64,000 nt of DNA from Notolepis coatsorum. Lineage: Eukaryota > Chordata > Actinopteri > Aulopiformes > Paralepididae. The first letter of the stretch is position 1; every line of letters starts with the position of its first letter. Location: NCBI GenBank assembly GCA_963971535.1, contig CAXASK010002027.1, positions 1 through 64,000 on the forward strand. The letters are read 5' to 3'. The translations under genes were made by a program, and so were the position numbers. Positions 23,492-34,448 of this stretch are shown here, in pieces. Under the pieces are notes generated by a model. That model made no database searches. It was given only the letters and a program-made list of their open reading frames with translations, and was not told the DNA's origin.

Positions 23492-24415
23492 TGTAACCAG
23501 GTCAATTGGACATTGATTATTATTATTATTATTGGGGTTTGAAATGTCACCAAATCCTGTTTATTATTTTATTAAGGATTGAAATGTTATTAAATCCTGT
23601 TTACAAATGTTTAATGTTTACAATTGTTTATTATTTCTTTATACCAAAGGCACTTTTATTTGAACGTAACTTAAGAAAGTTCACGGTCAAGAGCTTTACT
23701 TCCGGTTCACTAGACCAGTTCATTGTCTAGCGAGTACTTTTCCGGTTCTAGTCACTTCGCGGCAGAGCACTCAACCTGAGAGGTACGTTGTCCGTTTGGC
23801 GTGCAGCACCTTGTGTCTTATTATGTCGTATATATTCAGAACAAGAACTGAATGGTTATTATTATTATTAATGATAGCTTGATATTGTTGTTGCAAATTG
23901 TATGGTTAGTTAGAGGCACAATTAGATATTTTAGTTGGTCACAGATAGTAAATTCAATGTTCTTTGCAGGCAGACTTGGGCTATTGTCGACAGGGATTGT
24001 ACAGTGACGCTATTCTTTTGTGGTGCTTCTATCAACCATTTGATACAGGTATGTGTGTTTCTGAGATGTAAATGTATTGTTTTATATTTGGTTGTACAGT
24101 AATTCATGTTATTCACGTTAGCATGTTAAGATGTGGCTAGCTAAAAACCATGCGGTCAACGTAGTGACGTCGCCGGTTTTGCGTGCACTTCGCGCCAGAG
24201 CACTCAACCTGAGAGGCAGACTTGGGCTATTGTCGACAGGGATTGTACAGTGACGCTATTCTTTTGTGGTGCTTCTATCAACCATTTGATACAGGTGGCT
24301 TCCATTGCAAGACCATCCAATAAAAGATTGAACAGTGTTCACGTGTGCCGACTCATCCCTCTCACACAAAGAACACAACGCAAGAAAAGAGTACACACAG
24401 AGAACATCCGTTACA
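23492..24415 (+). repeat. Gypsy 5' LTR with intron-containing and spliced exon copies
   Basis: TGTAAC...GTTACA ends. The first exon pair is 23753-23782 and 23970-24048, separated by a GT-AG intron (23783-23969). A second copy, 24186-24294, has the two exons joined exactly with no intron. AATAAA at about 24320 follows the spliced copy. The 3' LTR has the same layout. Confidence 0.95.
23783..23969 (+). other. Putative intron inside the gypsy LTR (187 bp)
   Basis: Starts GTACGT after GAGAG and ends TTCTTTGCAG. The spliced copy at 24186-24294 lacks exactly this segment, so splicing at these sites must once have happened. A second donor, CAG followed by GTATGT, is at 24049. The same intron is at 31583-31769 in the 3' LTR. 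Confidence 0.9.
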
Positions 24416-24920
24416 GTGGTACCGTTCGACCCGGATCCGGATAAAGAACCTTCGCCAGGATCGTTCGCCAGGGAAGCTGCAGTTCCAAAGTCAACCCGCC
24501 CTCATCATTGGTGAGACGCTGCCCTCTAGTGGCGGGTGATAAACTCTTCACACAGGTGTCCTCACAATCAACACAGCCCTCATCATTGGTGAGACGCTGC
24601 CATCTAGTGGCCGGTGGAAAGAACTTCACCCTACGTGGCTTCAAATACAGTGAAGGTATGTCACAGCCACAGGCCACTGTTTTGTAAATTGTGAATAAAG
24701 ACAATTAAAGAGGACAATGAACTTGTGAAGAAGAAAAAAAGACATGAAGATGAGGATGCCAGTGAATGTGTAAAAGACATTTAGGTATTCATTTAATTGG
24801 TTAATCTCTTATGCAATTTCATTCCTATTAATTTTTTTATTTTATTTTAATTTTTTTTTCTACTACAGTAATTAATTTCTTTTCTGTTAAGCCAAAGCAC
24901 CTAAGGGTGAAAGTAGGACA
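24416..24920 (+). other. Gypsy leader with putative primer site
   Basis: TGGTACCGTTCGACCCGG beginning at 24417 is where the primer site should lie; I could not assign the tRNA. A 42-bp segment containing CATTGGTGAGACGCTGCC is present twice (about 24497 and 24581). Possible splice donor at about 24657. Confidence 0.5.
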
Positions 24921-25066: not shown

Positions 25067-26287
25067 GTGAATCGTGTTAGAGTGTTAGAGTGTGTGGACC
25101 GTGCCGGGCCAAGTCAATCACCAGTTAGTGAGCGACTAGCAGGTGAACAGCCAGAGTTAAGTGCGCTCATCACACAGCTGGCAGAAAAGATTGGCGAGTC
25201 CATCACAGCTAAGCTGCAGTTTAGCAGGAGCACAGACACCATTAGGTCTATTGAGCGCCCCTCAGAGGTGACAGTGCCACACCGAATAGTCGTGCACTCA
25301 GACGCCAGAGAGCCCCCTATATTCAGGGGTGATAATTCAGACAAATTCACTGTTTATGAGTGGGAGAATTTGGTTAGCTCATACATGAGGAAACGAGCCA
25401 CTCCAGTTAGTGAGCAATCACAGGAGATTCTATCTAAGCTCATGGGTAAAGCAGGGGATGTGGTAAGGATAAAGTTGCGTAACAACAAGTCTATTGACCA
25501 CACAAGGAACCCTCACATGATTTTTGACATACTAAAACAACATTTTAGTGAACTCTCATACTCGAGCATGCCCCTGGCGGACTTTTATAGTACACTACCA
25601 AAGCCTGGTGAAGATGCTATGGAGTTTTGGATCAGGTTAAATAGGACAGTAGAAGTAGCTGATGAGTGTTTGAGGAGGCAAGGCCGTAGTATCGAGGACC
25701 CGAGTCACGAGGTCAGCATGATGTTTATCAAACACTGCCCTGATCAGTCATTGGCTAATGTTTTTAAATTCAAGTCTGCTGGGCAATGGTCTGCTTGCGA
25801 GATCCAGGAGAGACTCGATGAGCACATGCAGGACAGGAAGTCTCGAACTGCTGCAGGTGGACAGTTTGAATTAGGTACGGTAGAGCGCAGGGTTCGTTCC
25901 CAGTGTCATGTGCCTATAGTCAGTGACGCACCAGTATTGAGTGCAACAGCCTCGGTGTTTCCGGCACCGTCCCCAGCACCCACAGATGGTTCCGGAGGTG
26001 GCCATGACTACATGAGGAGTCTAGTGGGTTTGTTAGACCGCCTAGTTACAGTGCAGACTCAGGTGCCAGCCAGCGCCACAGCTCGGGTGCCTGACACACA
26101 GCGCCGGTTGTGCAGAGTTTGTAACTCTCCTGACCATTCCACTCTTTCCCACTGCAGAGGGGAGAACAGGTGTCTAGCATGTTTGTCTCCTGGTCATTGG
26201 AAGAGGGATTGTCCTCAGCAGCACAACCAGCGGCAGACTCCGCCCGGTGACAGCACTGGTGGTCAGTCTCGTCCTTTAAACGACTAA
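25067..26287 (+). CDS. Gypsy Gag
   Basis: At least 406 codons. Capsid-like region, then zinc knuckles near the C-terminus: a variant CRVCNSPDHSTLSHC and a canonical CLACLSPGHWKRDC. The listed first codon is GTG, not ATG. A plausible ATG at 24921 lies upstream, but the G run at 24969-24980 puts it out of frame in this copy, which is either a length mutation or a sequencing error. The frame ends in TTA AAC GAC TAA, overlapping a slippery site used to reach pol. Confidence 0.85.
   Translation: MNRVRVLECVDRAGPSQSPVSERLAGEQPELSALITQLAEKIGESITAKLQFSRSTDTIRSIERPSEVTVPHRIVVHSDAREPPIFRGDNSDKFTVYEWENLVSSYMRKRATPVSEQSQEILSKLMGKAGDVVRIKLRNNKSIDHTRNPHMIFDILKQHFSELSYSSMPLADFYSTLPKPGEDAMEFWIRLNRTVEVADECLRRQGRSIEDPSHEVSMMFIKHCPDQSLANVFKFKSAGQWSACEIQERLDEHMQDRKSRTAAGGQFELGTVERRVRSQCHVPIVSDAPVLSATASVFPAPSPAPTDGSGGGHDYMRSLVGLLDRLVTVQTQVPASATARVPDTQRRLCRVCNSPDHSTLSHCRGENRCLACLSPGHWKRDCPQQHNQRQTPPGDSTGGQSRPLND
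26275..26281 (+). promoter_or_regulatory. Programmed -1 frameshift site TTTAAAC
   Basis: T TTA AAC in the Gag frame is the canonical X-XXY-YYZ heptamer. Slipping back one base enters the protease/pol frame, which is open from here to 28377 without a stop. A possible stem (CACACC at 26291-26296 with GGTGTG at 26308-26313) begins about 9 bases downstream. Confidence 0.8.
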
Positions 26288-26310: not shown

Positions 26311-28377
26311 GTGGGTGGTATGGATGAAACCCTCACTGATGTCTCTGATCTTGCTCACGTGTATGAAGACAAGTGTGCCAAAGCACCTAAGGGTTCTCGT
26401 ACGATCATTCAAGCAACTCAAAAGATTCAAGCTTTCAGTGACCTGTTTTATGCTTCAGTCCTTGTCAACCAGAGTGTTCAGCTTAGAGGCATGTTGGATA
26501 CTGGCTCTATGTCGTGCAGTATCAGTGAATATGCAGTGGAGAAGCTCCGCTCTGGGGGTGTTTTACCTGGGAAGCAGCAGCCTGAAGAAAATATTGTTTT
26601 GATTGGCTGTGGTGGTCTGGAGACGAGGCCTGATGGGTTTTATGATTTAGGCATGCAGCTTTATGGGGTCCCCTTTACTGTACCCACGTTGGTCGTGCCC
26701 GGTCAACATGATGACCTGATAGTTGGCACGAATGTCCTTAAACATGTTACCCACGTCCTGAAGGGTGGTAGTGAGTACTGGGATCTCGCATCGAGACCAG
26801 AGCCTCAGTCAAGTCCGGAAGTGGAGCAGTTTCTGTCCATGTTTACTAATGTGGAGCGCTGGAGGGGCGGTACGGTTCCCGAGAAAATTGGTACTGTGAA
26901 GCTCACCCAGGCCGTGACGCTCCTACCGAGACAGGAGCACTTAGTCTGGGGCAGACTCCCCGCTAAGGTGCCTATGTCACCTGGGAGCACTGTAATCGTG
27001 GAGCCAACAGACTCCAAGGCTATGCCACGAGGCGTTCTTGTGGGTCGGCTCGTTACACCACTCTGGGGAGATAGGTGGGTGCCCATGACTGTTGTCAATC
27101 CGTCTGACAAACCTATCACACTGAAAAGGAATTGCAAGTTGGCTGATGTTTCAGTGTGTTTGGCGATTGAGGACTTAGATGCTTTTCAGGGACTGCAGGC
27201 AGTTTCGGAAAGGCGAGAGCCTGACGCCCCTGGTTGTGCCGGTCCTTCGGCCCCGCCGGCTAGGAGTTTGTCAGAGCTCGGGCTCGGTGACATTGACATC
27301 AGTTCTTGCCAGGTCAGTGGAGCCTGCAGGTCTCAGCTTGAGCAGTTGATAATTGAATATAGCGACATCTTTTCCAAGGACTCGTTAGACTGTGGTGAGG
27401 TCAAGGGATACACTCATCGCATCCGTCTTGTGGATGAGCGCCCCTTTCGATTGCCCTACAGGAGGGTCCCCCCGGCTCACTATCAGAAGCTGAGACAGGT
27501 TCTCACTGATATGGAGGAAAAGGGGATTATCAGGAAGTCCTCGAGTGAGTACGCTTCACCTCTTGTAATGGTCTGGAAAAAGGACGGGGGGGTTCGGATC
27601 TGCACTGATTTCAGATGGCTGAATGCGCGCACCTTGAAGGACGCTCACCCCCTGCCACACCAGTCTGATTGTCTTGCCGCGCTTGGGGGCAATTGCCTCT
27701 TTAGTACGATGGATCTCACCTCTGGCTTCTTTAACATCCCAATGCATGAGGATGACAAGAAGTACACGGCTTTCACAACCCCCCTCGGGTTGCATGAGTA
27801 CAATCGCATGCCACAGGGTCTATGTAATAGCCCTGCAGCCTTTATGAGAATGATGACTGGAATCTTTGGGGATATGAACTTCACAAAACTGTTGTGTTAC
27901 CTTGATGATCTCCTGGTCTTCGCGCCGTCAGAAGATGAGGCCCTGTCTAGGCTCCACACCGTGTTTCAGAGGTTGAGGGAGAACAACTTGAAACTGGCTC
28001 CCAAGAAGTGTCACCTTCTGCAGCAGGAGGTTAGGTTCTTGGGCCATGTGGTCGGTGGTGGGGGCGTGTCTGTTGACCCCTCCAAGGTGGAGGTTATCTC
28101 CAACATGACAGTACAAGATCTCATGGAAGTTGATGGGTGCACACCCTCTGTCCGTAGGATCAGGTCGTTTCTTGGGATGGTATTCTATTACCAGCATTTC
28201 CTCCCAAACTGCTCTGCTGTTGCGAAGCCATTGTTCGCCCTTACGGCTGGACAAAAGAGGAAGGGGAGGTCCCCTAAGGACAAGAAACCACCTGGCAGCT
28301 TTCGTAGGCTCACCCCTGCCGACTGGACATCGGTTTGTGGGGAAGCTTTCGACAGGCTGAAAACACCCAGATTTTGA
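26311..28377 (+). pseudogene. Gypsy protease-RT (Pol, first part)
   Basis: Open from the slippery site; the first in-frame ATG is at 26320. Aspartic protease DTGS at about residue 63 from the listed start; RT with STMDLTSGFFNIP near 465 and YLDD near 529. It ends early at KTPRF followed by a stop, where related proteins continue into RNase H. The next part (from about 28380) is in another frame, so a small deletion or frameshift at about 28370 breaks Pol. Confidence 0.9.
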
Positions 28378-28408
28378 GGAGCCTTTTGTCCTCTCAGTTG
28401 ATGCGTCG

Positions 28409-29602
28409 TTGGACGGACTTGGCGCTGTGCTGTCGCAGGTACCTCGAGGTGAGTCTAAGGCCAGGCCTGTGGCTTTTGCAAGCAAGACCCTCAGTGCTTC
28501 ACAGCGTAAGTATCCAGCGTATAGACTGGAGTTCATGGCCTTGAAATGGAGCATATGCGAGAAATTCAGCCATTGGCTGAAGGGTCAGAGATTCACAGTT
28601 TGGACGGACAATAACCCGTTGACTTATCTGCTTACGAAGCCAAAGCTTGACGCATGTGAGATTCGCTGGGTGTCTAAACTTGCGGCTTTTGACTTTGATC
28701 TCAGACACCTGCCAGGGAAGAAGAATGTGGTGGCGGACGCTTTGAGTCGTGACCCGTTCGCTAAGCATGTTAGTCAGAGGTTATTGAGGGAGCCGTACCC
28801 GGCTCTTGTGCAGGAAGCGGGGGCAGTTGAGGGGGACTCTGTGCAAGATGTTTTTAGGTACAGTTGTCTGTCCCAGACGGTGAGTAGCTCACTACTCGGG
28901 ATGGATTGTGGGACAGAGGAGATCAGAGCCCTCTGTCAGTCTAAGTGTGATTGGGTTGGTGCTGCTGAGTCCAGAGCGCTGGGTTTGGTTCAGAACATCC
29001 AACATCTGTCTGAGGGTCAAGATGTTTTACCGATGTTTTCAGTTGAGGAGCTCCGGTTGAGTCAGGAACGGGACACATGCATCTCTAGGGTGCTACCCTT
29101 TGTCGCTGTTCGGAAGCGACCATCTAGACGGGAGAGGCACGGCGCTAACCAGAGGGTTCTCAGACTGTTGAAACAGTGGGACAAGCTGGAGGTCCGTGAT
29201 GGTGTCCTGTACCGTGTGACGAGGGACCAAGTGTCCAAGCAGAGGAGAACTCAGTACGTGTTGCCGCTGAGTCTGAGGGACAAGGCATTGTCGGGCATCC
29301 ATGATCTGGCGGGTCATCAGGGCCAGGATCGCACTCTTTCTCTTGCCAGGCAACGTTTTTATTGGCCAGATATGGAGAGGGATGTCAGAGCATATGTCAA
29401 GTGTTGTCAAAGATGTGTGTATGGGAAGTCCCCGGAGCCTGCTGCTCGTGCGCCCCTTGAAAGCATCAAGAGCTCCGCGCCGATGCAGTTAGTGTGTATG
29501 GATTTCTGGTCCGCTGAGGACAGCAATCAGCGGTCAGTGGATGTGTTGGTGGTGACTGACCATTTCACCAAGTTGGCGCACGCGTTCCCATGTGCTAATT
29601 AG
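28409..29602 (+). pseudogene. Gypsy RNase H and integrase N-terminus (Pol, second part)
   Basis: RNase H region (VDA just upstream of the listed start, then FASKTLSASQRKYPAYRLE, WTDNNPLTYL, KKNVVADALSR), then the integrase zinc domain (GHQGQDRT ... CCQRC) and the first catalytic Asp (CMDFWS). It stops at a TAG at 29600-29602. The next stretch is in the same frame, so a single nonsense codon interrupts integrase. Confidence 0.9.
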
Positions 29603-29638
29603 ACGGCGAAACAAGTTGCCAGGAAGCTCTGGGACAAC

Positions 29639-30961
29639 GTGTTTTGTGTGTACGGGTTCCCTGAGAGAATACACGCAGATCAAGGTGCCAATTTTGAGAG
29701 CAAATTGATTGCTGAGCTCCTCAGGTTGGCGGGAGTGGCCAAATCCCACACAACGGCCTATCACCCCATGGGTAACGGTGGGACAGAACGCTTTAACCGC
29801 ACTCTGGGGAACATGCTCCGCTCTCTCCCGCTTCGGAAGAAGCACCAGTGGCCGCAGCAGGTCCAGACACTCACGTTTGCGTACAATGCCACTGTTCATG
29901 AGACTACGGGTTACGCGCCTTTCTTTTTGATGTTTGGCCGCGTCCCTAGACTACCAGTGGATGTCATGTTCAGGCAGGTCCTGAATGACCCTGGAGTTGT
30001 AGATTACGATTCCTATGCTGGCTCCCTGCTTTCGTGTCTGAAGAGTGCCATGGAGATCGCTCAGAAGCACTCCACTGTTGAGCAACAGCACCAAACCCGA
30101 CAGTACAACAAGCGTGTCAAGGGTACACACCTGTCTGTGGGGGATCGGGTTCTGGTAGCAAATCAGGGAGAGCGGGGAAAACGGAAGTTGGCTGACAAAT
30201 GGGAGGATGGAGTGTATACAGTTGTTGGTGTCAATCCCAGTATCCATGTCTATAGGATTCAGGATGTAGGGGGGCGCACAAGGGTAGTGCACAGGAACCG
30301 TTTGCTGGAGGTCAACTTCTTGCCATTTCCTGAGCTAGAGCAGGGGGAGGACGCCAGTGAGATTGGTCAGGCGTTTGATGACGGAGAGTCCGATGAGGGG
30401 GACTGTGATAGTAGTGACGGTATGGATCCTGCATCTGGAGTTTGGTCTGAGGGCGGTGTTGCACATGACCTGACCGACTCTGTGGAGGTAGAGGGGCCTG
30501 TGGTCTCGTCACTTACAGACTCTTTTGATTCTGTGTTGGCTGTGACAGATGGGATAGAGCAGGTTAGCCCAGTGGCCAGTCCTGCAGGGGCCATTGCTCA
30601 ATGTACACCTGACACACAGGCACAGCACACAGAGGTTCCTCACTCACCTGACATAGTTGTCATAGCTCACACCGATTCAGAGGCAGAGGTTTCTCACTCA
30701 CCTGACATAGTTGTCATAGCTCACACCGATTCAGAGGCAGAGGCTTCTCACTCACCTGACGTAGTTGTCACAGCTCACACTGATTTAGGTACAGGGGTTT
30801 CGCACTCACCTGACATGGGTGTTGCGGTTCCCACTGATTTACACCCTCACGTAGGGGATGATGGTCGGGTTAGGACACGTACAGGGAGAGTAGTGAGATC
30901 AGTGAACAGGTTGATAGAATCTATGGTTCAGATGCCATTTCTGAGAGGGGTGACTGGTTGA
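29639..30961 (+). pseudogene. Gypsy integrase core and C-terminus (Pol, third part)
   Basis: Same frame as the preceding part after the TAG. It carries the second catalytic Asp (HADQGANF), the catalytic Glu (GGTERFNRTL) and a GPY-like C-terminal region around GDRVLVANQ. A long acidic tail follows with four units of an 18-residue repeat (SHSPDIVVIAHTDSEAEV). No chromodomain recognised. Confidence 0.9.
30639..30842 (+). repeat. 54-bp tandem repeat in the Pol tail
   Basis: About four units, the first two nearly identical, each containing cactcacctgacatagttgt. The 18-residue period keeps the frame. Confidence 0.9.
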
Positions 30962-31291
30962 GTTGAGGTGGAGGTTAGGGTTCACCAAAGCCAGTTTTTT
31001 TTTCTTTTGTATTGCTGGGTTGAGTAGGTGTCTATCAGACAGCTTTGAGGGCCATGAGTTGTGTGGCGTATCAGGCGTCATATTGATCTAAGGGAATTTT
31101 GAGATCTGATCAATATTTTTATTCTCTGAACCTCTTTTGGGGGTGACTTTTGAGTCGAATGGGGGACTAGGTCCTTTTTCTCTGGTGCCAGGTCTAGGTT
31201 AGTGGTAGACTACCGATATATTTCTTTTCTCTTTGTATGTCCCCCTTGCTCTGCTGACACGGGATGTTGGTGAAATTTCAGGAGGGGTGAA
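30962..31291 (+). other. Gypsy 3' non-coding region with polypurine tract
   Basis: No gene. The purine-rich AGGAGGGGTGA just before the 3' LTR is the likely polypurine tract. Confidence 0.6.
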
Positions 31292-32215
31292 TGTAACCAG
31301 GTCAATTGGACATTGATTATTATTATTATTATTGGGGTTTGAAATGTCACGAAATCCTGTTTATTATTTTATTAAGGATTGAAATGTTATTAAATCCTGT
31401 TTACAAATGTTTAATGTTTACAATTGTTTATTATTTCTTTATACCAAAGGCACTTTTATTTGAACGTAACTTAAGAAAGTTCACGGTCAAGAGCTTTACT
31501 TCCGGTTCACTAGACCAGTTCATTGTCTAGCGAGTACTTTTCCGGTTCTAGTCACTTCGCGCCAGAGCACTCAACCTGAGAGGTACGTTGTCCGTTTGGC
31601 GTGCAGCACCTTGTGTCTTATTATGTCGTATATATTCAGAACAAGAACTGAATGGTTATTATTATTATTAATGATAGCTTGATATTGTTGTTGCAAATTG
31701 TATGGTTAGTTAGAGGCACAATTAGATATTTTAGTTGGTCACAGATAGTAAATTCAATGTTCTTTGCAGGCAGACTTGGGCTATTGTCGACAGGGATTGT
31801 ACAGTGACGCTATTCTTTTGTGGTGCTTCTATCAACCATTTGATACAGGTATGTGTGTTTCTGAGATGTAAATGTATTGTTTTATATTTGGTTGTACAGT
31901 AATTCATGTTATTCACGTTAGCATGTTAAGATGTGGCTAGCTAAAAACCATGCGGTCAACGTAGTGACGTCGCCGGTTTTGCGTGCACTTCGCGCCAGAG
32001 CACTCAACCTGAGAGGCAGACTTGGGCTATTGTCGACAGGGATTGTACAGTGACGCTATTCTTTTGTGGTGCTTCTATCAACCATTTGATACAGGTGGCT
32101 TCCATTGCAAGACCATCCAATAAAAGATTGAACAGTGTTCACGTGTGCCGACTCATCCCTCTCACACAAAGAACACAACGCAAGAAAAGAGTACACACAG
32201 AGAACATCCGTTACA
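31292..32215 (+). repeat. Gypsy 3' LTR
   Basis: Same length and exon/intron layout as the 5' LTR: exons 31553-31582 and 31770-31848, spliced copy 31986-32094. Confidence 0.95.
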
Positions 32216-32562: not shown

Positions 32563-34448
32563 TTTTTTGTATTTAATTTTTTTATTATTTTTTAAACAAA
32601 CACATAAACAAACATGACAACACTCGATAAGATATACAAGCATTAGTTGACAGTGCACATCCAATGAAATCACCATTTAGTGAATTGTCTTATACAGGAT
32701 ATACCCTTAATACCTGTTATCTAAAAACCTACACACATATGCTCTAGCTCGTACCCCCCCTTCCCGGACCCCCCATTGGATAATCCATCCATTATGCCTC
32801 GCTCCTAACCAGACACTACCATTATATGCTAGCTTTTATTTTCTCCACCACTTCTAACCACAATGTCATTTTGGATTCATTGAGACCCAAAATTCTTGCT
32901 GTAGATATTTCTTGATAGATCACATCGAGATATGTAATAATCCAGACCTTTCGGCAAATTTTTTCCGGTTGGAGCCATCGTGATGCTATCAGCTTTTTAG
33001 CCACTGTGATACCCGATAAAACCAATCTCTTTAGCTGTGGATGTACTGCACACTCAAAAACATCATTCAGCAGTAATACAGAGGGGTGTACAGGTATATT
33101 CCAAGTTAAGAGATTTGATAATTGCTGGGTCACCTCTTTCCAGAATATCTTAACTGGTGGGCAGTCCCAGTACATGTGCATAAATGTCCCCTCGTCCCCA
33201 TTTGTACATAAGGAGCATTTGGAGTCTTGTATAAGACCCATTTTTTTCAGTCTTATAGGAGTCAAGTATGTCCTGTGAATATAGTTAAGATTGATTTTTT
33301 GATGGTCCGGGTTCCTTGATGTGAGTCGAACATTTGCCCAGGCTTCTTGCCAATCAAAATCACTTTCCAGGTCTGGTACATCCCTCCTCCAGACGGAGTC
33401 TAGGTGGAGGGTTTCATACGAGGACGTTAGTAATTGATGATAAAAATCTGAAACAAAACCTCTCGATGTCTCTCTTTCATAGAAGAATTTGTGGTATCTG
33501 TGGTGTTCAATTGGTATATTTAATGGAACACCTTGAGACTTCAAACATAACAATAACTGTATGTAAAAAAGATGTGTGGACTTGGTGAGATTACATTTTT
33601 TGCGTATTTCTTCATAACTACAAAAACCCTGTTTGTTAAAAACATCCCCTAATGAGTGTATGCCTTGCTTTTCCCATATAGGGAATCTTATAGGCAGTTT
33701 TCCAATCAAGAGTGCATTGTTATTGAATAAGGGAGTATGATTATGCCATTTATGTGGGTTAGGATATTTCTTTTGTGTTTCACGCCATATCCGGATCGCA
33801 TGAGTAATTATGGGGCCACATTTCCGTTCGCAATGCTTAATTGATAGTTTAGTGTATGCTATGTCCTTCAGTCTATGTGGGGCTACTATATTTTCTTCTA
33901 ATTTTCTCCAGGATACTAATGCTTGGGGATCAAACCATGTTGTCAGTGGTCTTAAAGTGTACGCCTTAAAATAGTGGAAAAAATCTGGAAATGCCATACC
34001 ACCGTCTGCTTTATTTCTCTGTGCGGTGGATCTTTTTATACGTGGTGGTTTGTTATTCCAAATAAATTTGTATGTGGAGGAGTGTAATTTTTTCCAGTAT
34101 CCCTCTGGAGGGGGTAACGGTAGCATTGAGCTGAAGAAGTTGATTCTAGGTAGTACGTCCATCTTAACTATTGATATCCGTGCCTGTACTGAGTTTTTAA
34201 GTTTTGCCCACCTATCAAGGTCGTCTTTGATTTTGTTTTGGATTTTTGTGTAATTGTGCTTCACCGTTTGTCTTATGGTGGGGAATATTTCCACTCCCAA
34301 ACATCTAAAGTGTTTTACCATAGGTATCTCTTCTGGGAGGGTTATATCTTTTTTTGCAGGGGCGTTAAGTGGAAGGAAAGCCGACTTCGGCCAATTTATC
34401 TTAAATCCCGATAAATCTCCAAAGTTCTTAATCAACTTTTTTTTGTAT
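32563..34448 (-). mobile_element. 5'-truncated fish L1 insertion
   Basis: About 1.9 kb of L1 3' end with an A-rich tail (T-rich on plus at 32563-32583). TSD tattattattaaactt at 32547-32562 and 34449-34464. It landed just after the transmembrane gene of env, so the last codons of that open frame come from L1. Confidence 0.85.
32822..34435 (-). pseudogene. L1 ORF2 C-terminal half (copy 1)
   Basis: 537 uninterrupted codons from just after the RT catalytic motifs to the ORF2 end. Landmarks are FGDLSGFKINWPKSAF, WNNKPPRI, GGMAFPDF and a Cys-rich C-terminal block (CSLCTNGDEGTFMHMYWDC). The start methionine is internal to ORF2. The endonuclease and most of RT are missing through 5' truncation, so there is no activity. 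Confidence 0.9.

Follow-up and report, generated by a model that had tools for sequence, protein, structure and literature searches.

Both long terminal repeats (LTRs) of a retrotransposon in the window, the 64,000-nt stretch of Notolepis coatsorum DNA analysed here, contain the same pair of exons twice, first as two pieces (A and B) on either side of a 187-nt intron and then, beyond a spacer, as one piece in which A is joined directly to B. The joined copy runs on into a third segment, C, and appears to be a doubly spliced product (A^B^C), since it leaves the first copy at both strong donors, so that the two copies part at two introns. The best explanation, and on the sequence comparisons described below a very probable one, is that the LTR carries a spliced landing pad, A^B^C, which is recurrently re-made. 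The first reverse transcription of a spliced RNA should remove any intron that lies within the end repeats of a retroelement. This LTR family suggests a way out, in which a ready-spliced copy is kept for the cDNA to land on; if this is true, the LTR is both self-renewing and intron-proof.

The window element and the splice sites of its LTRs

The element is a Ty3/gypsy-type LTR retrotransposon, as is evident from its paired TG..CA LTRs with a 4-bp target-site duplication (TSD), its CCHC gag, and its gypsy-type domain order, in which RT and RNase H precede integrase; the polypurine stretch is a further likeness to this group (Table 1). Domain matches in the open reading frames (ORFs) included RVT_1 (8.9e-36), RT_RNaseH, and Integrase_H2C2, together with a weak rve_3 match in the pol region (20.3 bits, under the cut-off of 26.5), and no env-like domain was found in the five ORFs scanned for domains. 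A stretch beginning G-TGG lies 3′ of the 5′ LTR. The leader 3′ of this LTR also holds an ordinary tandem duplication (24498-24551 and 24576-24629, 87% identical) which, in contrast to the LTR exons, is not homogenised. The last ORF contains 54-nt tandem repeats (30630-30839), the number of which seems variable, because in many relatives the last-ORF matches are split around residues 335-440. A downstream ORF adjoining the element (32822-34435, minus strand) gave a weak zf-RVT match, under the cut-off, and is perhaps LINE-derived.

Table 1. Features of the window element, in window coordinates; slashes mark splice junctions or the putative start.
Feature	Position	Strand	Remarks
5′ LTR	23492..24415	+	924 nt; short inverted ends TGTAAC...GTTACA; 2 differences from 3′ LTR; TSD CTTA
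U3 promoter region	23492..23753	+	ends with initiator-like TC/A (A = 23754)
Exon A, copy 1 (A1)	23754..23782	+	stretch common to both copies begins at 23753
Putative intron 1	23783..23969	+	GTACGT...TTTGCAG, 187 nt; splice-site scoring
Exon B, copy 1 (B1)	23970..24048	+	followed by donor CAG/GTATGT; splice-site scoring
Spacer X	24049..24185	+	5′ part of putative intron 2; ends at proposed strand-transfer point
Putative intron 2	24049..24294	+	246 nt, holding X, A2, and B2; donor 24049, acceptor at B2/C boundary
Copy 2 (A2^B2), spliced copy	24186..24294	+	proposed start of functional R (landing pad)
Exon C and U5	24295..24415	+	AATAAA at 24319-24324
gag-like ORF with CCHC zinc knuckle	25067..26287	+	ORF list and domain scan
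pol region, separate ORFs	26311..30961	+	RVT_1, RNase H, integrase zinc-binding domain, weak integrase-core match
Polypurine stretch AGGAGGGG	31280..31287	+	just 5′ of 3′ LTR
3′ LTR	31292..32215	+	924 nt; layout as in 5′ LTR
3′ LTR, exon A copy 1	31553..31582	+	sequence
3′ LTR, intron 1	31583..31769	+	sequence
3′ LTR, exon B copy 1	31770..31848	+	sequence
3′ LTR, spacer X	31849..31985	+	sequence
3′ LTR, copy 2 (A2^B2)	31986..32094	+	109/109 vs A1 and B1 of the same LTR

The duplication had been described in an earlier, sequence-only reading of this DNA, the coordinates of which proved exact: 23753-23782 and 23970-24048, taken together, equal 24186-24294 with one mismatch (23762, G/C), and the corresponding segments of the 3′ LTR are identical, as that reading had claimed. 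The mismatch is one of the two differences between the LTRs, and is private to the 5′ LTR. The splice-like ends attributed to the 187-nt segment were also confirmed, the segment starting with GTACGT and ending with TTCTTTGCAG. Only one intron had been placed between the copies, however. Intron 1 stands, but a second one has to be added, with its donor, CAG/GTATGT at 24049, located directly after B1, where copy 2 departs from copy 1 for the second time. After exon B, copy 2 continues with GTGGCTTCC and the AATAAA signal. The extent of putative intron 2 was derived from the acceptor ranking of the B2/C boundary, and from a product in which exon B is skipped (A^C), both of which are described below.

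GT and AG sites were scored by a simple matrix, for which the frequencies, like the initiator consensus, were approximations. Among all GT sites of the window LTR, the two best donors (24049 and 23783) are the points at which copy 2 departs, and among all AG sites the best acceptor (23970) is the start of exon B. Because these three sites fall exactly at the breakpoints of copy 2, the match is more than chance. Sites from A1 to 60 nt past B2 were then ranked across 21 LTRs (the 3′ LTR of the window and 20 relatives). The donors of the two introns (D1 and D2) were the two best donors in all 21, the B1 acceptor ranked between first and fourth in all 21, and the B2/C acceptor ranked between first and third in 20 of the 21. 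AATAAA begins 4-27 nt past B2/C in every one of these LTRs. The B2/C acceptor is weak in the window's own LTR (score 4.8, rank 7), and no other acceptor was found immediately before exon C there. When the genome was searched for LTRs in which intron 2 is complete and C is preceded by a separate acceptor (pattern YYNYAG/GTGGC...), there were no exact hits; therefore, no ancestor predating the duplication was found. The end of B2 (CAG/GTGG) can itself serve as the acceptor of intron 2, and the A^C form indicates that it is so used, because in this form D1 is joined to B2/C. The introns, the splicing, and the start site of the LTR are predicted from the DNA.

Relatives and the concerted change of the two copies

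Relatives were sought in a single genome, the 3.42-Gb genome to which the window belongs. A whole-LTR search scored the best 40 of 641 candidates (at least 41 matches). Thirty LTRs of the window family, the window's two included, were compared, and all 30 carry both the unspliced and the spliced form, with differences located mainly in U3. A search with the last ORF (at least 120 matches; 96 candidates scored) gave identities from 100% down to 51-55%, and 26 LTR regions adjoining these matches, picked for diversity and not at random, were compared, with exon borders set by hand. Three of the regions were uninformative (L066, which has Ns; L067, which is unrelated sequence; and L078, which ends within intron 1). 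The sequence-only reading had proposed comparing other genomic copies for the two forms, and the repeated exons, unspliced and spliced, were present in 23 of the 23 informative regions. The full layout was seen in L074, L075, and L077, the last ORFs of which are 55, 52, and 53% identical to that of the window. L079 (last ORF 55%) and L057 have a deletion in copy 1, and L070 covers exon B and the spacer only. With these last three set aside, the first junction was GT-AG in 20 of 20 testable relatives, in each of which copy 2 joins A straight to B; the variation of the boundaries between copies that the same reading had considered was thus not encountered. The exon-pair detector also gave many pairs in tandem-repeat DNA, mostly in L038, and these were disregarded. 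No relatives of the last ORF were found in a scan of viral contigs.

In L072 (G000:C32:95758737-95759817), the last ORF is about 100% identical to that of the window, and the R region is strongly different, indicating that parts of the LTR are exchanged between lineages. Because LTR parts move in this manner, a layout common to distant families need not predate the split of the families.

Exons A and B were compared in 23 LTRs (20 relatives, the window, L034, and L045). Copy 1 and copy 2 of the same LTR are 97-100% identical in 22 of the 23, the exception being L077 (81 of 92 positions). Between LTRs, the median identity of copy 1 is 62% (range 49-99%), and intron 1, with a median of 64%, diverges as much as the exons. 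Tree distances gave the same picture, in that a copy is nearer to its own partner than to the same copy of any other LTR in 22 of 23 cases; three of these cases (the window LTR, L034, and L072) are close to a tie, at zero distance, with a near-identical LTR in the set, and the exception is L076, whose distance to L072 is smaller than the distance between its own two copies. In 14 chosen lineage pairs, which overlap and are not independent, 189 of the 198 differences in copy 1 recur identically in copy 2. These comparisons indicate that copies 1 and 2 evolve in concert and, because both change together between lineages, that copy 2 is re-made recurrently. Seven single-base differences between the copies were detected among the 30 window-family LTRs (in L001, L006, L007, L010, L011, L016, and L021). 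None of them is common to two LTRs, and six of the seven are absent from the partner LTR (L011 was compared without its partner), which fits mutations that arose after insertion.

The sequence-only reading had attributed the duplication to a spliced cDNA that entered the LTR, perhaps by strand transfer in R. The kind of event it named agrees with the layout, which is that of a spliced product; that it was a single accident does not agree with the presence of both forms in 23 of 23 informative relatives, with the second intron, or with the concerted copies. One entry by misaligned strand transfer, followed by passive inheritance, is very unlikely. The homology of spacer X within related lineages, with an end position that is constant to a few bases, does point to inheritance of the duplicated layout itself, but a single capture predicts that copy 1 should resemble the copy 1 of other lineages more than its own copy 2, and the opposite was found in 22 of 23 LTRs, with nearly all of the lineage differences counted above present in both copies.

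Other splice forms preserved in the genome

In both LTRs of the element C1:300k, the junction within copy 2 is shifted 4 nt downstream to the next AG (GAGAG/ACTTGGG), and copy 1 is intact. This downstream-acceptor junction was found six times in the genome at no more than one mismatch (two in C1:300k, those of L080 and L081, and two others). L080 and L081 belong to a different sublineage, and because the junction occurs there, recombination is a conceivable origin of the C1:300k form.

Forms lacking both introns were also detected. U3 is joined to A^B at only two places in the genome (at no more than three mismatches), which are two 491-nt LTRs on C23, 29.6 kb apart, with the TSD CACA and three differences; they read U3-A-B-C-U5. 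A is joined directly to C at four places. Two of these are 382-nt LTRs on C6 (TSD TAAT, three differences) that read U3-A-C-U5, exon B being skipped exactly. The second A^C pair, also on C6, showed no differences from the first in 153 positions of the one flank compared, and because of this identity it appears to be a segmental duplication, which was counted with the first pair as one insertion. The C23 and C6 pairs were each taken as one element from the TSD and the adjoining sequence.

The short A^B^C LTRs were rejected as the ancestral form, since in U3 and in the interior they match the window element at about 99% and outgroup families carry the full layout; they look like derived losses. 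Recombination of A1 with A2 could by itself also produce an A^B^C LTR. It could not, to judge from the sequence, produce the A^C join, which splicing of the D1 donor to the B2/C acceptor would yield exactly. An ordinary duplication, which the sequence-only reading had held up as the alternative, is at odds with the occurrence of these other splice forms of the same sites.

It might also be supposed that splicing made the first copy only, and that gene conversion or template switching at the DNA level has kept the copies alike since then. The copies are indeed close together, and lineages do swap LTR segments, as in L072. Such a process must homogenise the exons up to the splice sites yet never carry intron 1 into copy 2: a copy 2 retaining intron 1 gave no hits in the window family at up to three mismatches, against 40 standard copy-2 junctions at no more than one mismatch, and in 20 of 20 relatives readable across the junction, A is joined directly to B. 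Neither the alternative-acceptor form nor the exon-skipped form would be expected from conversion, which is highly improbable. For the concerted evolution seen here, reverse transcription is the best explanation, ahead of DNA recombination.

A proposed replication cycle and its relation to known systems

The layout, its splice-site boundaries, the concerted change, and the forms that match alternative splicing or landing at A1 can be read from the DNA itself, and the following cycle would account for them. Two introns would lie in the transcribed R region, and the landing pad would be a spliced version of this R (A^B^C) present in the LTR itself. Transcription would begin at A1, and the 5′ end of the genomic RNA would be spliced to A1^B1^C, with intron 2 running from the B1 donor to CAG/G at the end of B2. 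The tRNA-primed minus-strand strong-stop DNA made from this end would read A-B-C-U5, and, at the first strand transfer, would pair over its full length with A2-B2-C of an unspliced 3′ LTR, where the match would comprise about 110 nt plus C, compared with only about 30 nt at A1. The promoter, A1, intron 1, B1, and the spacer would be copied from the 3′ LTR as if they were U3, so that the introns survive, and A2-B2 would be replaced by a fresh copy of the spliced A1^B1. Changes in A1 and B1 would thereby reach A2 and B2 in a later cycle. Landing at A1 instead would give short LTRs, and two such elements were found. The 3′ LTR of the same RNA would have to escape splicing, which a cap-dependent first exon could explain. 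The introns may be kept for the sake of expression, of RNA export, or of control over the 5′ poly(A) signal. We infer the start site, the splicing, the tRNA-primed transfer, the unspliced 3′ LTR, and the occurrence of the cycle in most rounds of replication. It is likely that the host spliceosome carries out a regular step in genome replication, that R is defined by the spliced RNA and not by the DNA, that every cycle writes copy 2 anew from spliced RNA with the intron-bearing copy handed on as U3, and that the layout is older than the split of families sharing about half of their last-ORF residues, or was worth acquiring.

The TC/A at the end of U3, which we take to be initiator-like from an approximate consensus, has a constant position in the 21 LTRs inspected. 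In 17 of the 21, the repeat begins at the A of this site or no more than 2 nt upstream of it, and in the other four it reaches 4-6 nt upstream; this is where a cDNA copied to the 5′ end of the RNA would stop. The bases directly before A2 vary between close relatives, with C in 34 and G in 6 of the 40 standard junctions, and in the G-type elements with both LTRs listed (C1:212.15 Mb and C30:116.38 Mb) the two LTRs agree. End heterogeneity of the RNA or the cDNA would produce such variation; in HIV-1, the count of 5′ Gs is variable and has an effect on strand transfer (PMC4668388). In all 21 LTRs measured, the start-like A1 is parted from the repeat that would be used as R (A2-B2-C) by intron 1, B1, and the spacer, an arrangement that argues against a contiguous R with the start site at its border with U3. 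That transcription starts at A2 instead, with the spacer as promoter, A2-B2-C as an ordinary R, and A1-intron-B1 as a relic or a second promoter region, is scarcely credible. The end of the spacer does have the CpG-rich, CRE-like TGACGTC before A2 in the window, and the base context at A2 also fits a loose initiator. An A2-only start, however, offers changes in copy 1 no route into copy 2, which they do enter; no other donor outranks D1 or D2 in any of the 21 LTRs, so that copy 1 is no relic; and the spacer is only 44-67 nt long in 9 of the 21. With A1 as the principal start, part-time use of A2 may occur.

In the DNA of a textbook LTR, the border of U3 and R is the start site. Here, by contrast, the start-like site is located 433 nt upstream of the repeat that would serve as R, and only the spliced RNA and copy 2 would have R in one piece. 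A warning is contained in this arrangement, as R can be misplaced if LTRs are read from DNA alone. The intron of foamy viruses extends beyond the LTR as far as the genes that follow, and we know of no intronless R copy within a foamy virus LTR, whereas both introns of the window family are internal to the LTR, and the spliced RNA would retain the primer-binding region. In foamy viruses (Spumaretrovirinae), the major splice donor is located inside R before the poly(A) signal, and U1 binding there suppresses polyadenylation (PMC3694450). D1 and D2, known as sequence signals only, likewise precede AATAAA, and the parallel suggests one use for them, namely control of polyadenylation.

Penelope-like elements, which are GIY-YIG endonuclease elements, keep introns through the replication cycle, and this retention is hypothesised to arise from an antisense template and self-priming (PMC3846280). 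The window family resembles them as a retroelement that keeps introns through replication, and differs in that the landing pad would be located in a gypsy-type LTR, and in that the element has RVT_1, RNase H, and integrase, without a GIY-YIG match in the five ORFs scanned (E <= 0.001). Proviruses and retrocopies that derive from spliced RNA are reverse transcribed into the genome with their introns lost for good, whereas the window family keeps the intron and the spliced form side by side, and the spliced form would be renewed. In agreement with the sequence-only reading, which knew of no LTR with this layout, no description of unspliced and spliced R side by side in an LTR was found in searches of open full-text literature. 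The LTR architecture and the replication step are, as far as found, undescribed for gypsy retrotransposons. If the proposed cycle is correct, the genome is a splicing record, in which each insertion preserves the splice form of the RNA 5′ end, be it the usual form, the alternative acceptor, or exon skipping. The predictions of the model are testable with existing RNA reads.

Several minor variants were observed among the relatives. Four short elements (L031, L032, L033, and L041, on G000 C30, C8, C7, and C4) have window-type LTRs about 2.1-2.2 kb apart and little match to the interior of the window element, and are probably non-autonomous relatives. The U3 of L068 (G000:C46:54215370-54216450) contains an insertion with an A-rich end, bordered by a repeated 17-nt AGGAAT...TTTATA stretch, which looks SINE-like. 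An inverted duplication of part of the U3-A-intron region was found in the LTR of L048 (G000:C43:4239200-4245200). When L079 (G000:C24:80754440-80755440) was compared by eye with L075, exon A was very unlike, although intron 1 and exon B closely resembled those of L075; within L079, A1 and A2 agree at 25 of 25 positions.
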